Assembly: GCF_018343775.1 (NCBI RefSeq)
Contig: NZ_CP074349.1
Span: 2,408,001-2,472,000 of the forward strand
Direction: 5' to 3'
Source of the DNA: Pseudomonas cichorii
GTDB lineage: Bacteria > Pseudomonadota > Gammaproteobacteria > Pseudomonadales > Pseudomonadaceae
Length of the DNA: 64,000 nt
The notes under the pieces are model-generated. The model was not told the DNA's origin. It worked only from the letters and a program-made list of their open reading frames with translations, and searched no databases. The translations under genes and the position numbers were made by a program. Position 1 is the first letter of the stretch. The number at the start of each line of letters is the position of its first letter. Positions 6,191 through 13,961 of the stretch are shown here, one piece after another.

Positions 6191-7249
6191 ATGAATAACA
6201 AGAAACGTCCTACGATTGCCACGGTGGCCGAACGCGCCGGCTTGAGTGTGGCCACCGTGGACCGGGTGCTCAACGACAGGGCTCCGGTCAGCCCGCAAAC
6301 CGCCGAACAGGTGTTGCAGGCCGCCGAAGCGGTCGGTTATTTCGCCGCCCGCCTGATCGGCCAGCGACTGCGCGAGCGTCGCCCTCACTATCGTTTCGGC
6401 ATTCTGCTGCTGGGCACTGCGCAGGAGTTCTACGCCAACCTTGCAGCGGCCATCAACGAAGCCGCCCGAGCCTGGACCGATGCCAATCTCAGCTGCCACT
6501 TCGAGTACATCACCGACCGTACCCCGGCCGTGATTGCCGGACAGATCGAACAACTGGCGGTGAAATATGACGGGCTGGGTGTCGTCAGTTTCGCTCATCC
6601 GCTGATCAACCAGACCATCCTGCAGATACGCGCCGCCGGGGTGCCGATAGTGGCCTTGCTGTCGGACTTCCACGAGACCCCGCAAGGGCCTTATGTCGGC
6701 CAGGACAACCATGCATTCGGGCGCACCATGGGCTGGCTGGTCGCCCATATCTCGGGTGCCCGCGAAGGATGCGTCGGGGTGCTGATGGGCGGCCATCGCT
6801 TTCTCGGGCATCAGGCCCGCGTCGACGGCCTGCGCAGCTACCTCACGCAACACGCACCGCACCTGCGCCTGCTGGAGCCGCTGGTGAACATGGATAACGA
6901 CGACATCACCGAAGAAGCCACCCTCGACCTGCTGGCCCGCCATGACGACCTGCGCGGACTGTGCGTAGTAGGTGGGGGTGGCGACGGCATTATCAAAGCA
7001 CTGGCCCAGTTACCCGAGCGGCCGTCGATCTGCAGCATCCTGCTGGAATCGACGTCCAGCTCGCATCAGGCGCTTGAGCAGGGCGTAGTCAGTCTGGTGA
7101 TCGATTCGCAGCCACTGCTGATCGGCACTTCCCTGATCCGGCTGCTGGTCGAGTTGCAGGCAGCGCCAGTCTTTGATCCAAAGCGGCATTGTGTGCATGT
7201 GCCTTTGCAGATTGTGACGAGTGAGAATAGTGGGGCTTTGGGCTGTTGA
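6191..7249 (+). CDS. LacI family transcriptional regulator
   Basis: The 352-residue regulator has a LacI helix-turn-helix at the N terminus (PTIATVAERAGLSVATVDRVLN, residues about 6-27) and hinge residues QVLQAAEAVGY. A periplasmic-binding-protein-like sensor domain (about 65-340) follows. These regulators sense sugars, polyols or inositols and repress neighbouring catabolic genes. It is divergently transcribed from the MocD-E-F-like operon across a repeat-rich intergenic region, so that operon is the likely target. The GC-rich style of this gene ends abruptly at 7249, where the AT-rich accessory island begins. Confidence 0.92.
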   Translation: MNNKKRPTIATVAERAGLSVATVDRVLNDRAPVSPQTAEQVLQAAEAVGYFAARLIGQRLRERRPHYRFGILLLGTAQEFYANLAAAINEAARAWTDANLSCHFEYITDRTPAVIAGQIEQLAVKYDGLGVVSFAHPLINQTILQIRAAGVPIVALLSDFHETPQGPYVGQDNHAFGRTMGWLVAHISGAREGCVGVLMGGHRFLGHQARVDGLRSYLTQHAPHLRLLEPLVNMDNDDITEEATLDLLARHDDLRGLCVVGGGGDGIIKALAQLPERPSICSILLESTSSSHQALEQGVVSLVIDSQPLLIGTSLIRLLVELQAAPVFDPKRHCVHVPLQIVTSENSGALGC

Positions 7250-7513
7250 GGTATGGCCGATGCTTTTGGCTTTTGGAGTGGCATCCCTGCGCCTTGCTGA
7301 ATTTCATTACTACTTTCCCTGTGCTTGTAGCCGTGCAATAGCCCTGGATTCTTCAGATGTTTAGGGTAGGCAGTTTTAGGGCGGTGGGTTTCCTGTGTCA
7401 ATGTTTGCTGAATATTGTTGTTGGCCAAGGGTGGCTTTGGGGTGGGTGCTGTGAGTTGCGATTGGCAGAAATCGGCCACCAGCAGTCTCTCGAACGCATC
7501 CAGCTAGAAGGAT

Positions 7514-8257
7514 TCAATGCTTCAAGTATCCATCGCCTACGTAACCAGGAGATACAAAATTTATTGGCGTCTTATCTATGGTAATTATGGTTGCAATAGG
7601 GTGGCTTTCGGGCTCTCGTGGAAAATAAACAACCAATGCTTTATCTTCAAAAACTGTTAGAACTGACCATTTCTTTTTGCTGATATCCACTAAAGGAAGA
7701 TTTTCTCCATAGTTCCGCATCACCTCAATTGCTCTAGCCTCACCCTTTAAGGAAGATGCTGAGTAAAAAATCATGACTGTAGAAGCGACTATTATCACCC
7801 CCCAAAACCTATTACTTAGAAAATCTTTGTATCTAACCACGATAACTGCGACACCCAGTCCGATCACGTAGGTCGACGGGGCTAAAATCATGTTTAATAA
7901 ATACATTGCTTCAGATGCTAGCTGATAGATTTTTGTACGCATAACATATGTAGTCATGATTATAAGCGCTAGATATGTTAATATTATAAAGCTCACCACC
8001 TTGTCAAACAAAGAAGACGAAATGATTTTTATCGAGATTCCGAAGGCTAGACTCATAAGCATGATGCCGCTCATTGTCGCTGCTGAGTGCATAGAAAAAT
8101 AGCTGGTTGGTAAAAATGGTGTATACCATTTCAACCCGAACGCTGTGTAATAAGTTTGTATTTCAAGAAAGCCATAAACGAAGGATGCCAAATAAACTAA
8201 TGCTGCTGCTCCGCCTAGTTCAGCCACTTTACCTAATATATTTGCTTCGGCGCTCAT
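7514..8257 (-). CDS. Multi-pass membrane protein of unknown function
   Basis: I do not recognise this 247-residue protein. It has about five hydrophobic segments (near residues 14-32, 55-75, 85-107, 120-142 and 152-170). A C-terminal soluble part of about 75 residues follows (KKKWSVLTVFEDKALVVYFP...). Codon use is AT-rich, unlike the flanking core genes. It is the last of three minus-strand genes behind the retron reverse transcriptase, with 273 bases to the HEPN-like gene, so co-transcription is possible but not shown. Membrane proteins are common effectors in defence modules, which is the only functional hint. Confidence 0.75.
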   Translation of the reverse strand: MSAEANILGKVAELGGAAALVYLASFVYGFLEIQTYYTAFGLKWYTPFLPTSYFSMHSAATMSGIMLMSLAFGISIKIISSSLFDKVVSFIILTYLALIIMTTYVMRTKIYQLASEAMYLLNMILAPSTYVIGLGVAVIVVRYKDFLSNRFWGVIIVASTVMIFYSASSLKGEARAIEVMRNYGENLPLVDISKKKWSVLTVFEDKALVVYFPREPESHPIATIITIDKTPINFVSPGYVGDGYLKH

Positions 8258-8530
8258 GCTACTTAGACCTTATCGTTTGAGATGCGCACACTAAAATGTG
8301 CTTTTTGATTTTCGCGAAAATCTTAAGTCAATTTTTTATGCGCTTAAAATGACTGGCTCAGCGTAGAAAAGCTATACGGCATTAACGATCCTCTCAATTC
8401 GCCTAGTTAATTCAAAAACTTCAACCGATAGGAGATTATACTCATCTGTAACAGGTCTGCGTTTTGGCAAGAGAATATATGGCTTCGAGCTGAATTAGTC
8501 GCGCCTGTAAATGGGGTCAAGGCTCTGGCA

Positions 8531-9454
8531 TTAGAAACTCCAGTCGCTAAGTTTGATCCTGTAGTTTTCCTCAAGAAAAGCTGGTAGGTCTTTATGCTCA
8601 AGTGTCTGGAAAATTTGATGATTATCAATATCAAAAACAGAGAACTTCAAATTAATTTCTGTTCGATCAAATTTTTTGCCAATCGCAGAGTACAAAACTT
8701 CAAAAAGAACGAAAGGCCAGCCTTGAGTACTGAATACATGCTTTGAATCACCTTCCTGACTGCTCCCATAATAAACTTTTCCGTCACTTACCCAAACAGT
8801 CCAAGAAGCGCCTTGAGACCGAGATTGGCCATCACCTGTTGAATTAATAAAGCATGACATTCCTGGGTTCGAGGAAGTATGCTTTTGCGATAGCTTATGA
8901 GTGAAAGCGTTTCTCTGGGAATAAAGAAATTTAAGCTTTAGCTTATATAGCTTTTCTTCGCTAGTTACTGGCATGGTCGGATATATCGTGTTTTTATTTT
9001 CAGGCTTCAGAGATTCTGGGTCGCGTTTGGAAACGCTGACTGACGCGAGCAGATGAGCTAATGCGCTAGGAGGGAGATTTTCAACTCCAGCATGAAATGC
9101 TCTAGTTACCCCATAAATCTTATTATAATGCTCATGAAGTGCTTTTGCGCTTTCTACAAACGCATCAGATTCAAAGGCTAGGCTTTCAATCGCATCCCTA
9201 TGCTCTGAGAGAATTTCGGTTTTTTTGCTGGAAAGCCACTCATAAAATGTGATGAATTCTCGTGACTGCCCTAGTAAGTCGAAGCAAGTAAGCAGAAGAT
9301 AAACGACAAGTGCTTCACGCTCGTGTCGTGAGTGATGAACGAAGTTTTCGGCTTGATCCACGGAATAACCTTCAGCACCAGGGAGTGCGTCAGACTCCTC
9401 CAAGATTTCTTGTGCTAAATTTAATCTGGCGAGGATCAATTTATCTTTGTCCAT
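8531..9454 (-). CDS. HEPN-like protein of unknown function
   Basis: This 307-residue protein has no family I can name with certainty. Its mid region contains YSQRNAFTHK, a good match to the HEPN ribonuclease signature Rx4-6H (Arg181 and His186, with Asn after the Arg), inside a helical stretch. An earlier helix, YLLLTCFDLLGQ, resembles the first helices of HEPN-like domains. A beta-rich C terminus follows. AAGG precedes the start by about 8 bases. It is AT-rich and lies 253 bases downstream of the retron RT-protease gene on the same strand. I infer an RNase toxin or effector candidate; the fold is not proven. Confidence 0.7.
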   Translation of the reverse strand: MDKDKLILARLNLAQEILEESDALPGAEGYSVDQAENFVHHSRHEREALVVYLLLTCFDLLGQSREFITFYEWLSSKKTEILSEHRDAIESLAFESDAFVESAKALHEHYNKIYGVTRAFHAGVENLPPSALAHLLASVSVSKRDPESLKPENKNTIYPTMPVTSEEKLYKLKLKFLYSQRNAFTHKLSQKHTSSNPGMSCFINSTGDGQSRSQGASWTVWVSDGKVYYGSSQEGDSKHVFSTQGWPFVLFEVLYSAIGKKFDRTEINLKFSVFDIDNHQIFQTLEHKDLPAFLEENYRIKLSDWSF

Positions 9455-9707
9455 ATTTTAGCCTTTTAGTGGGTGACCAATACAAATTAGCAATGTGGTT
9501 TTATAGATTTAATTAGTGCTCTTTCTCTAATGTCAATCGCGTGGTTTTAGCTCCGGTTCTTTACTAGAATATTATCTGAGCGGAGCGAGTAAATTGTATC
9601 AAATTCTAGCAAAAACAGCATCCTAAGTACCCATCCCTCATTAGCTGTTCCATGTAGGTAGAAAACGATATGCCAGCCCTCTCGATCTGACAGTCTTTGC
9701 CTGACCT

Positions 9708-11507
9708 CTAGCTACGTCCGTTAAGGGTAGTGACAGGCTGCTTCTGAAGCCTTGTTTGATAGGTGCTGCTAAAAACCCCTTTGCCGGGAATTTCTGGTAA
9801 GAGGTTTAGCGTTCCGTCCCCCATATAGTCGTACAACCTTTTTAGGAGCAAAAAGTCGGCTCTTTTTGTAAAGTTATTCAAGCTCTCTAATGGTATAAAC
9901 CCATAAAGCGCTGCGTCGATATTGTTTTTAGCACCTCTAGCTGTGACGCCGATTACTTCCATTGAGTCGTTGAACATAGGGCCTCCACTGTTTCCCTCCA
10001 TTAGCGTAAAATCTACCAGCCAAAGGTCTAGGTCAACCTGTCGTCGCCGTTGGGTAGTATTACCTTTCGCAATGTAGTGTGCTGTACCGTCTCGATGTTT
10101 AGGAAAGCCGATAGATAGAACTGGATCGGTGGGGCGAATAATAGTCTTTTCGCATTTTTGCAGGGCAGGTATGTTTTTAAAATCCACATTGGGATGAAAA
10201 ATAGCCAAGTCTGCTTTCTTGTCCGAAAGTATAAGCTCTGCGGAGTATTCTTTCGGGTCACCGGCACGGTGGAATGAAATGGAGTGACGGGCGATAGTTT
10301 TGGATATCCCGGTCACGACGTGTTCGTTGGTCACTATGCCGACCCCCTCCAGAAGGAAGGCTGTTCCTTGGCTTTCATCAATGATATTGTTCACGACAAA
10401 AATTGAGTTTCCTAAAATTTCTTCTGGTGATTTTTTGAACTCAGTATTTTCTTTGCCTATTGCTACTGTAAACTCGTAAGCCAATCGACGATATATGTTG
10501 TCACCTCGCCCTCGAACCATCTGGATGTAGTTCAGTCGTCCTCTGACCACCTTGATATAAAAATCGCCAACATTGTCCTTTGTCCGCAGAATTTGTCGAG
10601 GCTGCAGTGACTGATTTTCGCCCTTGAGGATCTCCAGATATCTGGCTTCTGCCAGCTCAGGCCCGTAGCGCTTGAGGGCATTGATCATTGAGCTCGTTAA
10701 ACGGATAAACTCTCTCGTGACGTTCGGCATATCGTTAACGACAAGCCCGGTTACCATTTGTCGCTGCGTTCGGTGCTGAAGACGCGTTTTTTCAGGATTT
10801 ATGATAAATCCATTGGATTTGATGATTTCTTCCAGCTCGCGCCCAAGTATCGCTCTGCCGTCATCGGAAATCTCGACAATATCCTTAGGCAGATGTTTTG
10901 CGGTGCTGGTAAACGAAAATGTGATGTCGTCAGCATACCTGGTGAAGTGACATTTGCCTGACTTTGCTAACGCCTGCAGTTGTGAGTCAAGCTTGCGGCA
11001 TATCATGTTAGATATCAGCGGTGACGTAGGGGCGCCCTGAGCTAATTTCCCATCGCTGCAACAGATTTGTGCCATGACCGTCGCAACATTATGGGGTGCA
11101 TTAAATGGATGAGCCATGAATAGGTTTCTGATTCGTCCGAAGTGAATGCTTTCAAAAAAATCTTTCAGATCAATATTGAATACATATCTCTTTCTGGCGT
11201 GGATCTGAGCATTTGTCTTAATGTTTCTGCCCTTGACGAAGCCGTGGCTGGAAGATTTTGGAGAATAATATTTTTCCAGATGCGGCAATAGTGCATGCTG
11301 AATTGTTTTCATCACCCGTTTTGGGGCTTTGATGGTGCGATGAGTTTTGTTTTTCTTTAAAATGGAAAAGCTTACGTAATGGCTGCCTTTCCTTTTGTAA
11401 AGAAAACTCAGTAGTTTGTTCTGATCAACCTTTAGTAACTGGCAAAATCCATCAAGGCTGTTGAAACCGGGGCCAAACAAATTCTTGAAAATTTCGTCGA
11501 TATCCAT
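9708..11507 (-). CDS. Retron reverse transcriptase fused to a trypsin-like serine protease
   Basis: The 599-residue protein has two parts. Residues about 25-310 are a retron-type reverse transcriptase. They carry the region-X NAxxH motif (NAQIH, 99-103), the DLKDFFESI palm motif, QGAPTSPLISN, the catalytic YADD (191-194) and the region-Y VTG (252-254). NAxxH and VTG together separate retrons from group II intron and other RTs. Residues about 365-570 form a trypsin-like peptidase with His396 (TNEHVV), Asp433 (KADLAIF) and Ser507 (GNSGGP) as the triad. Fusions of this kind have been described among retron classes, as I recall, but few are characterised. The RT should make an RNA-linked msDNA, and the protease is the probable effector. 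The candidate RNA lies directly upstream. Confidence 0.92.
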   Translation of the reverse strand: MDIDEIFKNLFGPGFNSLDGFCQLLKVDQNKLLSFLYKRKGSHYVSFSILKKNKTHRTIKAPKRVMKTIQHALLPHLEKYYSPKSSSHGFVKGRNIKTNAQIHARKRYVFNIDLKDFFESIHFGRIRNLFMAHPFNAPHNVATVMAQICCSDGKLAQGAPTSPLISNMICRKLDSQLQALAKSGKCHFTRYADDITFSFTSTAKHLPKDIVEISDDGRAILGRELEEIIKSNGFIINPEKTRLQHRTQRQMVTGLVVNDMPNVTREFIRLTSSMINALKRYGPELAEARYLEILKGENQSLQPRQILRTKDNVGDFYIKVVRGRLNYIQMVRGRGDNIYRRLAYEFTVAIGKENTEFKKSPEEILGNSIFVVNNIIDESQGTAFLLEGVGIVTNEHVVTGISKTIARHSISFHRAGDPKEYSAELILSDKKADLAIFHPNVDFKNIPALQKCEKTIIRPTDPVLSIGFPKHRDGTAHYIAKGNTTQRRRQVDLDLWLVDFTLMEGNSGGPMFNDSMEVIGVTARGAKNNIDAALYGFIPLESLNNFTKRADFLLLKRLYDYMGDGTLNLLPEIPGKGVFSSTYQTRLQKQPVTTLNGRS

Positions 11508-11517
11508 TCGTAGTACC

Positions 11518-11646
11518 GGGTCTCGGGGCTATTTTCTCTTCTACCAGCGCCATCGATAACGTCAACGTATAGCGCGAACAGGCAAAGCTACCCTTGCAGT
11601 GGCCACCGCATATAGTCAGTGGAAAGTTAAATCGCGCCCCGAGCCC
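11518..11646 (-). ncRNA. Candidate retron msr-msd RNA
   Basis: On the minus strand this segment ends 10 bases before the RT start codon. Its ends form an inverted repeat suited to the a1/a2 stem: GGGCTCGGGGC (11646-11636) with GCCCCGAGACCC (11529-11518), 11 pairs with one bulge. Inside are three hairpins: 11603-11622 (six pairs), 11582-11597 (five pairs with a bulge) and 11547-11575 (GCGC arms enclosing a longer imperfect stem). Size, position and architecture match a small retron RNA. The branching guanosine and the msr/msd boundary cannot be fixed by eye. A second, overlapping inverted repeat (11658-11670 with 11547-11559) gives an alternative end. Confidence 0.45.
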
Positions 11647-11710
11647 GATGGTAAATTGATATCATGGCGCGCATTGCTGGTCAACGTGCACTGGGAGAAT
11701 CATCAGGCCG

Positions 11711-12064
11711 GTGTCAGACAATCATGCTAAAAGCGACATTTTTTGGCCGCTAGCTGCCCTCTGCCGAGGGCGGTATCCACTCGAAACGGTTCAACCAACT
11801 CCCAGCGGATACCGTGCGGTGTTTCTATATAACAAACTTCAGGCATGCGAACCCGGTCTTGATTTGCAGTTGTTGAATGGGTTCGATGTTTTCCTGGTCG
11901 CCGACTTTCTTGATGACGCCTAGGCCACAGAAATGTTGCTCGCGGTTGAAGATCGGAAGAATGCTTGCCTGGGGCTTGCTCCAGAAGCCTTGAGTCAAGG
12001 TATAGGTGGCGCCATTGCCAGCCTTGAGGCGAGTCGTTGCAGAGGGGGCTTCGCTCCTAATCAC
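11711..12064 (-). other. Gene-poor flank with possible decayed coding remnant
   Basis: Between the retron gene and the small gene at 12211 there are about 700 bases with no convincing intact gene. On the minus strand an open stretch starts near 12064 and ends at a TAG near 11832. A frame change at about 11835 would continue with protein-like text (IETPHGIRWELVEP) to about 11724. This may be a frameshifted remnant of an older gene broken when the island arrived. I cannot assign a family, and codon bias is weak. Confidence 0.25.
11770..11813. repeat. Inverted repeat in the island flank
   Basis: CGGTATCC (11770-11777) pairs with GGATACCG (11806-11813), and the loop contains a smaller GGTT/AACC hairpin. 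It lies about 260 bases upstream of the retron gene. It could be a terminator-like or protein-binding structure, or part of a longer retron RNA. There is no T-run beside it. Confidence 0.35.
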
Positions 12065-12157
12065 ATTTTCAGTCTTTGCTCTCTTACCCCAGCCTTGCCA
12101 GGCATTGGTTCGGTGTCTTTAAGATTTGCTGTACGGACCGGAAACATTTTCGTCGTC

Positions 12158-12192
12158 GGACCGGATAAGCAGCGCATTACCTAATCCGGTCC
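12158..12192 (-). terminator. Inverted repeat downstream of the small gene
   Basis: GGACCGGAT (12158-12166) and ATCCGGTCC (12184-12192) form a nine-pair stem just past the stop codon of the minus-strand small gene. No clear T-run follows, so it is a weak terminator candidate or simply an RNA 3' end structure. Confidence 0.35.
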
Positions 12193-12210
12193 CACACTTT
12201 CACTACAGCT

Positions 12211-12423
12211 TCAACGCAGCTCCACCCGCTCCAACGATCGATCCAGTTCAGTCCTGGCCATGCCGATCAGATGCACGACTGAAAAAGCCAGATCACGTTT
12301 CGGTCCATTGAGGCTGTCGCCGGATTCGTAGGCGGTGGCGGCTGCGCAGCGCAGCAGTTCGGAGATATGCAGCAGGGATTCTTCGAGGGAAGGAACAGGT
12401 GGGTCGGGGGTTACTTTTTTCAC
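12211..12423 (-). CDS. Small Pseudomonas protein, DUF3077/DUF6124-like
   Basis: This 70-residue protein opens MKKVTPDPPVPSLEESLLHISELLRCAA and continues as a single amphipathic helical region. That is the pattern of a small protein family (DUF3077/DUF6124-like in my memory) present in many copies in Pseudomonas genomes. The start is GTG at 12423 with AGGTAA upstream. Function is unknown. It is preceded by a long, strongly structured leader (12492-12605), also typical of this family. Confidence 0.75.
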   Translation of the reverse strand: MKKVTPDPPVPSLEESLLHISELLRCAAATAYESGDSLNGPKRDLAFSVVHLIGMARTELDRSLERVELR

Positions 12424-12491
12424 GGTCGAGTTACCTATATCGGGCCACCTTTCACTCGCTGCTAAACGATAGAGGGGTGGCGACTTTGACG

Positions 12492-12605
12492 CGGGTTAGC
12501 AGACCGGTAACTCAACCAAAACCGGCGCACCCGAAGGTGCCCCACGCAAAGCCGCCATATAGGCGTGACTCTTGCGTGGTTGAGCTATGCAGGCTGCTAA
12601 ACCCG
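12492..12605 (-). promoter_or_regulatory. Highly structured leader of the small DUF gene
   Basis: An outer stem joins CGGGTTAGCAG (12492-12502) with CTGCTAAACCCG (12594-12605, one bulge). A second layer pairs CTCAACCA (12511-12518) with TGGTTGAG (12577-12584), and a third option pairs CACGCAA (12543-12549) with TTGCGTG (12572-12578). Two apical hairpins sit inside: GCACC/GGTGC near 12526-12540 and CGCC/GGCG near 12553-12565. On the minus strand it ends about 68 bases before the GTG start. The layered helices look like a conserved cis-RNA or multi-way junction rather than a plain terminator. Confidence 0.55.
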
Positions 12606-12713
12606 ATCACTGATGAGCAGTGACCGGCACAGCCTAGAGAGCCAAAAACACCCACGCAAGGGGATGGGATTTTCTAGGAAACTTCGTGCGGATGATAGGG
12701 ACGGGTCCGTAAG

Positions 12714-12740
12714 AAATGCCCTGCAAGCAGGGCATTTTCG
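12714..12740. terminator. Bidirectional rho-independent terminator
   Basis: AAATGCCCTGC (12714-12724) and GCAGGGCATTT (12727-12737) make an 11-pair stem with a two-base loop and T/A runs on both sides. It lies 50 bases beyond the stop of the secreted protein gene at 12790, which it probably terminates. Confidence 0.8.
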
Positions 12741-12789
12741 TTAGTTTAAGTAACACCGAGGCCGGTCTTGAATGCCATATTCAACCCCA

Positions 12790-13164
12790 TCACGGAATCT
12801 TGAACCGCGCACTGACCTTGGTCTTGCCATCCGCCAGAGTCAGCAGGGCGCTGACCCGCGAGCCTGACTGGTAACTCACGCCCTTGCTTTGCAGTTGATT
12901 GCCGCTGAGCGCGACGATGTCGGTTTTAACCCGTTTATGGCGGGTGGTAATGGTCAGCACGCCGGTGACGTTGTCGGCACTGACCGGCTGATCGTGATCG
13001 GTCAGGTACAGGTCCACGGTATCGCCGTTGGCGACCATTTCGATGGCTACCAGCCCGGCATCTTCGATCAGGCCGCCATGCTGCGGCTGAGGAACGCCAT
13101 GGGCATTGGCCTGGTTCATGAACAGGGCACAGGCAACTAGCAGGCAATGGAAAACAGCTTTCAT
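12790..13164 (-). CDS. Small secreted protein with His-rich mature N terminus
   Basis: The 124-residue product begins with a signal peptide (MKAVFHCLLVACALFMNQANA). The mature part starts HGVPQPQHGG, a possible metal-binding segment, followed by an all-beta region of about 90 residues. I know no function. It lies 17 bases after the DUF4198 gene on the same strand, so the pair is probably one operon encoding periplasmic proteins. Its histidines and the DUF4198 partner suggest a metal-related role by analogy only. Confidence 0.8.
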   Translation of the reverse strand: MKAVFHCLLVACALFMNQANAHGVPQPQHGGLIEDAGLVAIEMVANGDTVDLYLTDHDQPVSADNVTGVLTITTRHKRVKTDIVALSGNQLQSKGVSYQSGSRVSALLTLADGKTKVSARFKIP

Positions 13165-13181
13165 TGACAGGTTCCCCTCAA

Positions 13182-13961
13182 TTACTTCTTGTTCAGACGA
13201 GCGATTTCCGACGCTGGCAGCGTTGATTCTGCGCGGGGCAGAGGTGCCAGACCGCTCGCCTTGTGGAACGAGAGCGACGAGCTGTAGGCCAGGATGTCGT
13301 ATTTTTCCTTGTTGCCATCAAGGCCGACACGTTCTCCACCCGCCGAGCGGTCGCGGTATTCGATACCCAGCACATAGGTGCCTTTCCAGGGCAGCTTGAA
13401 GCTGACCTTGCCTTCGCCATCGGTATTGGCAAGCCGCACCCAGCCGGAGCCCGAAGACAGGGTCACGGGAACATTGCCCAACGGGTCTTGCAGGTGAAAG
13501 ACCTGGAACTCCACTTCATCGCCCTTTACGACGCCTGTCGGTACGATATCCAGGTCCAGCTCTGGCTCGCGGGCACGAAAGTCGCTGACCCAGCGGGTGG
13601 CTGGCGTCCAGTAGGCGCTGACGGTCTTGCCTTCGTCCTTGACCTGAAAGATCGGGTACTGCTTGTCGAAGGCCAGCCATGAATCATTCTTGCCGGGCTT
13701 CTGAGCAACCGAAAAGTGGTCGCGCTCGAGTTTCATTTTCAGCGGAGTCGTTCCTGATGCGCTTGTCCACTGAGCTTCCAGGGCCTTGAAGCGATCCATG
13801 CCGCCAGGAGTGACCTCCAGCATATTGTTGTCATATTCGCCGTAGTAGAACGTCATGCTGCGGTCCGGGGCTTGCTCGAACCAGATCTGGTGAGCCTGTA
13901 CTGAGGGGGCTGCAAGCAGGATTGCCGAAGCGGTAAGCAAGGTGCTCAGGGTTTTCTTCAT
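13182..13961 (-). CDS. DUF4198 domain periplasmic protein
   Basis: The 259-residue protein has a signal peptide (MKKTLSTLLTASAILLAAPSVQA). The mature start, HQIWFEQ, leads into a beta-sandwich with WKGTYVLGIEY near residue 195. It matches the DUF4198 family, periplasmic proteins often linked to nickel or cobalt uptake or to TonB systems. The mature N-terminal His right after the signal peptidase site is a recurring feature in metal-binding families such as NikM-like domains. It is the first gene of a two-gene operon with the small secreted protein. The ligand is not known. Confidence 0.82.
   Translation of the reverse strand: MKKTLSTLLTASAILLAAPSVQAHQIWFEQAPDRSMTFYYGEYDNNMLEVTPGGMDRFKALEAQWTSASGTTPLKMKLERDHFSVAQKPGKNDSWLAFDKQYPIFQVKDEGKTVSAYWTPATRWVSDFRAREPELDLDIVPTGVVKGDEVEFQVFHLQDPLGNVPVTLSSGSGWVRLANTDGEGKVSFKLPWKGTYVLGIEYRDRSAGGERVGLDGNKEKYDILAYSSSLSFHKASGLAPLPRAESTLPASEIARLNKK

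Follow-up and report, generated by a model that had tools for sequence, protein, structure and literature searches.

The original survey of retrons is said to be that of Mestre in 2020, and their experimental census is reportedly that of Khan. In published retron models, the msDNA serves as a switch (PMC12948488, PMC12405507), and the RT-Toprim retron Eco2 forms a trimer with its msDNA (PMC12405507). The latter source also names a protease among the domains fused to retron reverse transcriptases (RTs), and PADLOC holds a model for such proteins, RT-Protease_XI (PDLC02959/02960); a sequence-only reading of the locus described here had taken RT-protease fusions to be a known class, and both sources bear it out. 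In the open-licence PMC literature, no study was recognised that deals with what the type XI protease cuts or how it is controlled, and a mention of 'Retron_XI' in PMC11811056 actually concerns Retron_XII.

The locus lies in a 64,000-nucleotide window of the Pseudomonas cichorii genome (the window being the whole stretch of DNA analysed) and consists of one gene, in which an RT is fused to a trypsin-like protease, and a predicted RNA upstream of it (Table 1; numbers prefixed L denote collected loci and G genomes). The protein matches RT-Protease_XI with an E value of 2.1e-185 over residues 15-548, corresponding to profile positions 8-509 of 510, and the next PADLOC matches, through the RT, are to type XII (RT-TIR, E 7.5e-119) and type I-C (RT-Toprim, E 8.3e-105). 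By these matches the protein is of an already catalogued kind, retron type XI, and its sequence carries no distinguishing feature. Described here in addition is the predicted structured RNA with retron-type a1/a2 arms, which the survey or the census may already show; the other additions to the class are that no partner gene is evident, that gene and RNA are shared as one unit, and that the type is of mixed ancestry. The locus is probably a defence retron, in which an HtrA-like protease is restrained by an RT-msDNA complex and, upon a trigger, cuts an unlinked protein of the host or of the phage. The computed basis for this reading consists of the fusion, its intact active sites, purifying selection, an RNA with covarying arms, the lack of a convincing linked partner, and the sharing of the RT gene together with its RNA.

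Table 1. Features of the RT-protease locus, in window coordinates
Feature	Position	Strand	Basis or remark
RT-protease fusion gene, 599 aa	9708..11507	minus	ATG at 11507, stop codon included in span
Retron-type reverse transcriptase domain, residues 15-345	10473..11465	minus	
RT motif NAQIH, residues 99-103	11199..11213	minus	
RT motif YADD, residues 191-194	10926..10937	minus	
RT motif VTG, residues 252-254	10746..10754	minus	
HtrA-like trypsin domain, residues 365-545	9873..10415	minus	
Triad codon His396	10320..10322	minus	
Triad codon Asp433	10209..10211	minus	
Triad codon Ser507	9987..9989	minus	
Predicted retron ncRNA (msr-msd), a1 to a2, 131 nt	11517..11647	minus	alignment, RNAalifold, covariation, RNA model
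Predicted a1 arm of a1/a2 helix	11636..11647	minus	covariation
Predicted a2 arm, ending shortly before ATG at 11507	11517..11529	minus	covariation
Predicted msr hairpin, near-invariant in 7 relatives	11603..11622	minus	alignment and RNAalifold
AAGAGAAAATA block just ahead of a2	11530..11540	minus	alignment
Promoter-like TTGACC-17 nt-TATCAA, directly before ncRNA	11656..11684	minus	alignment read by eye
Segment absent from sister genome G018; retron and two other ORFs	7286..11739		

The open reading frame with NAQIH, YADD and VTG that had been proposed from the letters alone was confirmed at 9708-11507, on the minus strand, as was the intact trypsin-like triad at exactly His396, Asp433 and Ser507. 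In Pfam, residues 49-254 match RVT_1 (E 5.6e-24) and residues 381-521 match Trypsin_2 (E 8.2e-16), both over the cut-off, and the GNSGGP active site together with the His/Asp/Ser triad marks the second domain as a trypsin-like serine protease; no PDZ domain was found after the protease in a Pfam search of the 599-aa protein up to E 0.1. The closest solved RT by sequence is that of retron Eco2/Ec67 (PDB 9lm3/9i2f/9s1f, E 2.9e-49), and the nearest proteases are of HtrA type. An AlphaFold2 model of the fusion (mean pLDDT 84), for which 29 sequences were aligned, gives a consistent picture in fold comparison, with Eco2 at ranks 1-5, other retron RTs next and Deg/HtrA proteases from rank 15. The model is only moderately confident about how the two domains sit relative to each other (pTM 0.66). 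Among the 56 sequence matches and the 50 listed fold matches to structures there is no solved RT-protease fusion.

What the protease acts upon is the point on which the strongest competing explanation turns. In Hachiman, AVAST, Lamassu and DRT systems, pro-nucleases are switched on by trypsin-like proteases (PMC12799240), and the present protease might likewise activate an unlinked pro-enzyme rather than cut the final target. We regard this as unlikely, since in those systems the nuclease gene lies immediately upstream of the protease fusion (PMC12799240), whereas here no ORF of more than 83 aa is found on either strand at 11508-12789, Pfam matches nothing in the ORF examined next (12790-13164), and among the neighbours of the 45 distinct RT-protease fusions collected no family recurs convincingly. 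The last statement comes from an all-against-all comparison of 1624 ORFs (at least 70 codons) within 4.5 kb of the fusions, a search that is not exhaustive because most flanks reach 4 kb or less and some less than 1.5 kb (L013, L041, L037, L042). Of the 25 largest ORF groups in it, all but one span two loci, and the one three-locus group (L073, L076, L078), made up of a Pro/Arg/Ser-rich ORF 3.6-3.8 kb upstream, was judged a composition artefact. Because no family recurs convincingly, a linked substrate or pro-enzyme is not evident, and the 'built-in effector' of the sequence-only reading would fit this lack of a convincing recurrent neighbour.

A second alternative is that the protease is directed chiefly at its own chain or at the RT complex, setting the RT free or destroying it, and so serves as a regulatory or maturation domain. 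The 45 fusions were obtained from 54 ORFs by removing seven second copies of the same loci and two identical proteins, and in their alignment H396, D433, S507 and both catalytic RT aspartates are present in all 45. The G of VTG is kept in 44 (L112 reads VTN), YADD is replaced by YCDD in L043, L049 and L073 and by YVDD in L052, and L006 has RFVDD in place of RYADD with the catalytic aspartates retained. Invariance of the triad across such divergent fusions argues against a merely self-directed protease, which we hold to be improbable, for all that RT and protease share one chain here and are encoded by separate overlapping ORFs in L085. The preferred reading, of a restrained effector protease, also draws on the substitution pattern: dN/dS against L034, L004 and L023 is 0.03-0.13 for the RT and protease domains and 0.32-0.54 for the short C-terminal tail, these ratios coming from three of six comparisons because dS was saturated against L005, L006 and L035. 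Both domains are thus under purifying selection, and the low values in both indicate that the fusion is neither a chance product nor a pseudogene.

The sister genome G018 is collinear with the window on both flanks and has 1.4 kb in place of 7286-11739. This replacement encodes a TIR protein matching ThsB (L116:3038-3739, PADLOC E 2.4e-118), and the site may be a small spot at which defence-type genes are exchanged. Similarity to L034, L027 and L023 is limited to 9741-11744 or 9741-11686, corresponding to gene, RNA and promoter region, which indicates that the RT gene and the RNA are shared without their neighbours; within 7286-11739, only 9741-11744 is common to the nearest RT-protease relative. 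The two other ORFs of the segment, neither of which occurs in the shared DNA of the six near relatives compared, were set aside as parts of the system: for ORF 8531-9454 (minus strand, 307 aa), searches of Pfam, PADLOC, NCBIfam and PHROG gave no match at the thresholds applied, and ORF 7514-8257 has matches far below the cut-offs to DUF1422 (E 0.072) and a YijD-like family (E 3.7e-4). In the genus sample of 398 genomes, 4, the own genome included, have matches of nearly full length with at least 70% identity. L023 comes from a P. luteola plasmid record in which neighbouring genes are annotated as phage-like, and on a Haematobacter plasmid a Gabija GajA gene (L026:5639-7930, PADLOC E 4e-268) lies directly downstream of the RT-protease. 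Such defence-type surroundings, GajA in L026 and, in G018, a TIR gene resembling ThsB at this very site, count for a defence retron; taken with the patchy presence in the genus, they make a defence-neutral, housekeeping or selfish element very improbable, the point in its favour being that no phenotype is known. As a separate observation, Rfam identifies a phage-type regulatory pair on the minus strand, a little past the edge of the variable segment and in DNA that G018 also has, consisting of a C4 antisense RNA (12473-12562, 75.7 bits) and its a1/b1 target (12586-12637, 53.9 bits).

The upstream RNA was examined in an alignment of seven sequences (the window, L004, L005, L006, L023, L034 and L035), for which RNAalifold predicts a long closing a1/a2 helix, a near-invariant hairpin and an msd-like stem, with 93% of cells pairing. 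Pairs with changes on both sides number 11 as against 5.5 in shuffles, and the covariation score is 0.293 as against 0.180, neither value being reached in any of 500 shuffles; further pair types, a weak measure and one of five, stand at 25 against 22.4, with 35 of 500 shuffles as high. Sliding the partner by one to three columns lowers pairing to 36-49% and both-side-change pairs to 0-3, a control that favours the structure because the structure was derived from the same alignment, so the argument is carried by the a1/a2 helix, where 5 of 14 pairs have changed on both sides with pairing kept. As a single sequence the window's a1/a2 helix, which is split by a bulge, is not significant (3 of 40 mononucleotide shuffles are as good), and the single-sequence repeat likewise fails the shuffle test in the aligned relatives L004, L023, L034 and L035 and in L036 of the same clade. 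Support for the window's predicted helix comes from covariation, and it is through covariation in seven sequences that the locus shows the retron arrangement of an ncRNA adjoining the RT with complementary a1/a2 ends.

Three more distant relatives were compared over the block of about 150 nt directly upstream of the gene. In two of them it is better preserved than the coding DNA, with 78.7% identity in L028 and 80.0% in L029 as against 70-73%, and the third, L035, gave no separate RNA match. The AAGAGAAAATA block, of which near-copies occur in L024, L036 and L037, is likely the point at which the RT would start copying. The TTGAC of the promoter-like element is kept in 7/7 aligned relatives, and a consensus promoter scan did not list the proposed TTGACC/TATCAA element.

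Rfam 15 gave no retron RNA match at 7000-13200 of the window, nor any retron RNA in the five other loci searched (L007, L026, L042, L043, L034). An RNA model was built from the seven aligned loci; searched against the window together with 69 of the 113 collected loci, it returned 18 matches up to E 10, seven of them training loci. Beyond the training set, matches at E 1e-4 or better were obtained in L037 (8e-12), L024 (5e-7), L036 (9e-5) and L039 (1e-4), weaker copies from other genera that each lie shortly ahead of an RT-protease. A further match in L037 is weak (E 0.026) and lies away from the RT start. Elements weakly resembling the model were also seen upstream of cyanobacterial RTs without a fused effector (L047, L048, L055, L056) and, their matches being weak (E 0.001 to 0.55), were set aside as proof of an RNA. 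In another observation on stand-alone cyanobacterial retron RTs, a protein family lies directly downstream of them (L055:5001-5840, L057:5025-5891, L060:5004-5879), and its L055 copy, which has no Pfam or PADLOC match, is a candidate new effector. The RNA is present in a single copy in its own genome, and a search of 293 related genomes matched only that genome (G000) and G060, a figure of 2/293 that is a lower bound because the RNA-bearing G262 and G356 (L005, L006) are not among the matches, being either outside the 293-genome sample or lost to stricter filters.

The usual priming site of a retron is a G beside a1, which in Eco2 is rG15 (PMC12405507). Read by eye, the seven-sequence alignment shows no G on the stretch from a1 to the msr hairpin that is both invariant and unpaired, and the customary 2'-5' branch G was therefore not located; the invariant G at 11638 sits inside the a1 helix. 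That the canonical G was not located, and the fact that the three nearest retron NCBIfam models (RT-TIR 1.2e-102, Ec67 1.3e-98, St85 5.8e-60) all fall below their curated cut-offs for this RT, could be taken to suggest an enzyme of the DRT/UG kind, or one derived from group II, that uses its template differently, an idea that scarcely deserves credence when those retron models lead so widely over the non-retron ones (group II 8.6e-16, Drt3a 1.5e-7, Drt2 3.9e-7), the NAxxH and VTG motifs are present and an a1/a2 RNA lies upstream. The check for clustering with non-retron families, which the sequence-only reading had proposed, found the best matches among retron families and the best solved structure in Eco2/Ec67, and a retron-class RT fused to a trypsin-like protease stands on PADLOC, NCBIfam, motifs and fold alike.

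Upstream RNAs appear not to be confined to the window's clade. An inverted repeat near the RT start that is better than all 40 mononucleotide shuffles was found in 32 of the 45 fusions, the window's not among them (the L073 repeat lies at least 95 nt before the RT start), and 13 fusions, including the window's, have no repeat beating every shuffle. The arms of these repeats differ between clades and pair within each clade. In clade A6 (the L007-L010 type; 7 of 8 loci aligned) 11 of 22 predicted pairs have both-side changes as a raw count, and in the alphaproteobacterial clade A7 (again 7 of 8 loci) 7 of 35, so that by their compensatory changes two further RT-protease clades appear to possess a1/a2 RNAs of their own. 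In 7 of 8 loci of the L007 clade (L007, L041, L044, L009, L010, L013, L051), the first base of a2 coincides with the second base of the RT start codon, and the RNA end therefore overlaps the coding start; the a1/a2 helix would cover the translation start, a layout that could couple RNA folding to translation.

In a tree of 101 RT domains, 45 of them from RT-proteases, the rows were chosen by similarity to the window's RT, so the 10 changes needed to account for the RT-proteases, at least three of which are forced by well-supported branches, hold for this sample; L059 and L025 are long branches in it, and L085 and L086, scored as non-fusions, can add changes. The 45 RT-proteases form one group in 0 of 200 bootstrap trees, and a single RT-protease clade is rejected (AU p 3.9e-12), from which it follows that the fused trypsin domain was gained, lost or exchanged more than once in this sample. 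Type XI thus appears not to be one monophyletic RT lineage, which concerns the type and not the protein's match to it. The protease tree is silent on one versus several gains because the HtrA-type outgroups sit on one long branch. Two loci show the domains as separate reading frames: in L085 (3941-5570; Parcubacteria) the RT ORF overlaps that of the protease and is read in another frame, and in L086 (3815-5356) the two lie in the same frame with a stop codon between.

How the parts of the defence retron would work together can be sketched from retrons that have been studied, from which we infer msDNA synthesis, restraint, trigger, cleavage and defence; the abortive infection proposed in the sequence-only reading, with proteolysis as the step that kills the cell, is likewise inferred. 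The RNA (11647-11517) would pair its ends through a1/a2, be bound by the RT through the msr hairpin and be partly copied into msDNA. The resulting RT-msDNA complex would keep the attached HtrA-like protease in check, perhaps within an oligomer comparable to that of the RT-Toprim retron Eco2, until phage damage to, or modification of, the msDNA or the complex frees the protease, which would then cleave a host or phage protein and stop phage growth. HtrA proteases work as trimers and are allosterically switched, and a trimeric scaffold common to HtrA and Eco2 would be an attractive link. More tentatively, and with rather more doubt than confidence, the wider group may represent trypsin effectors that have joined or left retron RTs several times, each clade with its own a1/a2 RNA, to give a partnerless, one-gene, msDNA-gated protease that cleaves a phage protein or an essential one of the host and would be the bacterial equivalent of a death switch driven by proteolysis.

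If the defence-retron reading is true, proteolysis joins the ways in which a retron stops phage, and an msDNA-controlled protease could become a tool. The locus is a compact test piece of about 2 kb, comprising a promoter-like element, an RNA with covariation-supported arms and one gene, with no evident partner. Set against known systems, its protease is nearest in sequence and fold to HtrA, DegS and DegP, with which it shares GNSGGP; in the HtrA family a PDZ domain follows the protease, whereas here the protease is fused to an RT and no Pfam PDZ is found. The nuclease-protease pairs of Hachiman, AVAST, Lamassu and DRT likewise fuse a trypsin-like domain to a defence enzyme, but there the protease is N-terminal and a pro-nuclease gene adjoins (PMC12799240), whereas here it is C-terminal, no partner is seen, and the window's locus has no MBL-fold pro-nuclease gene immediately upstream. 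Retron types XII (RT-TIR) and I-C (RT-Toprim) have a similar RT and a different C-terminal effector. Eco2 (Ec67), whose RT is the closest by sequence and fold, is likewise a single fused polypeptide with an ncRNA, and differs in that its effector is a Toprim RNase (PMC12405507) and that of the window a serine protease. Retron type XI itself, to which the match is near full-length, is the same in plan: one gene, in which an RT is fused to a trypsin-like protease.
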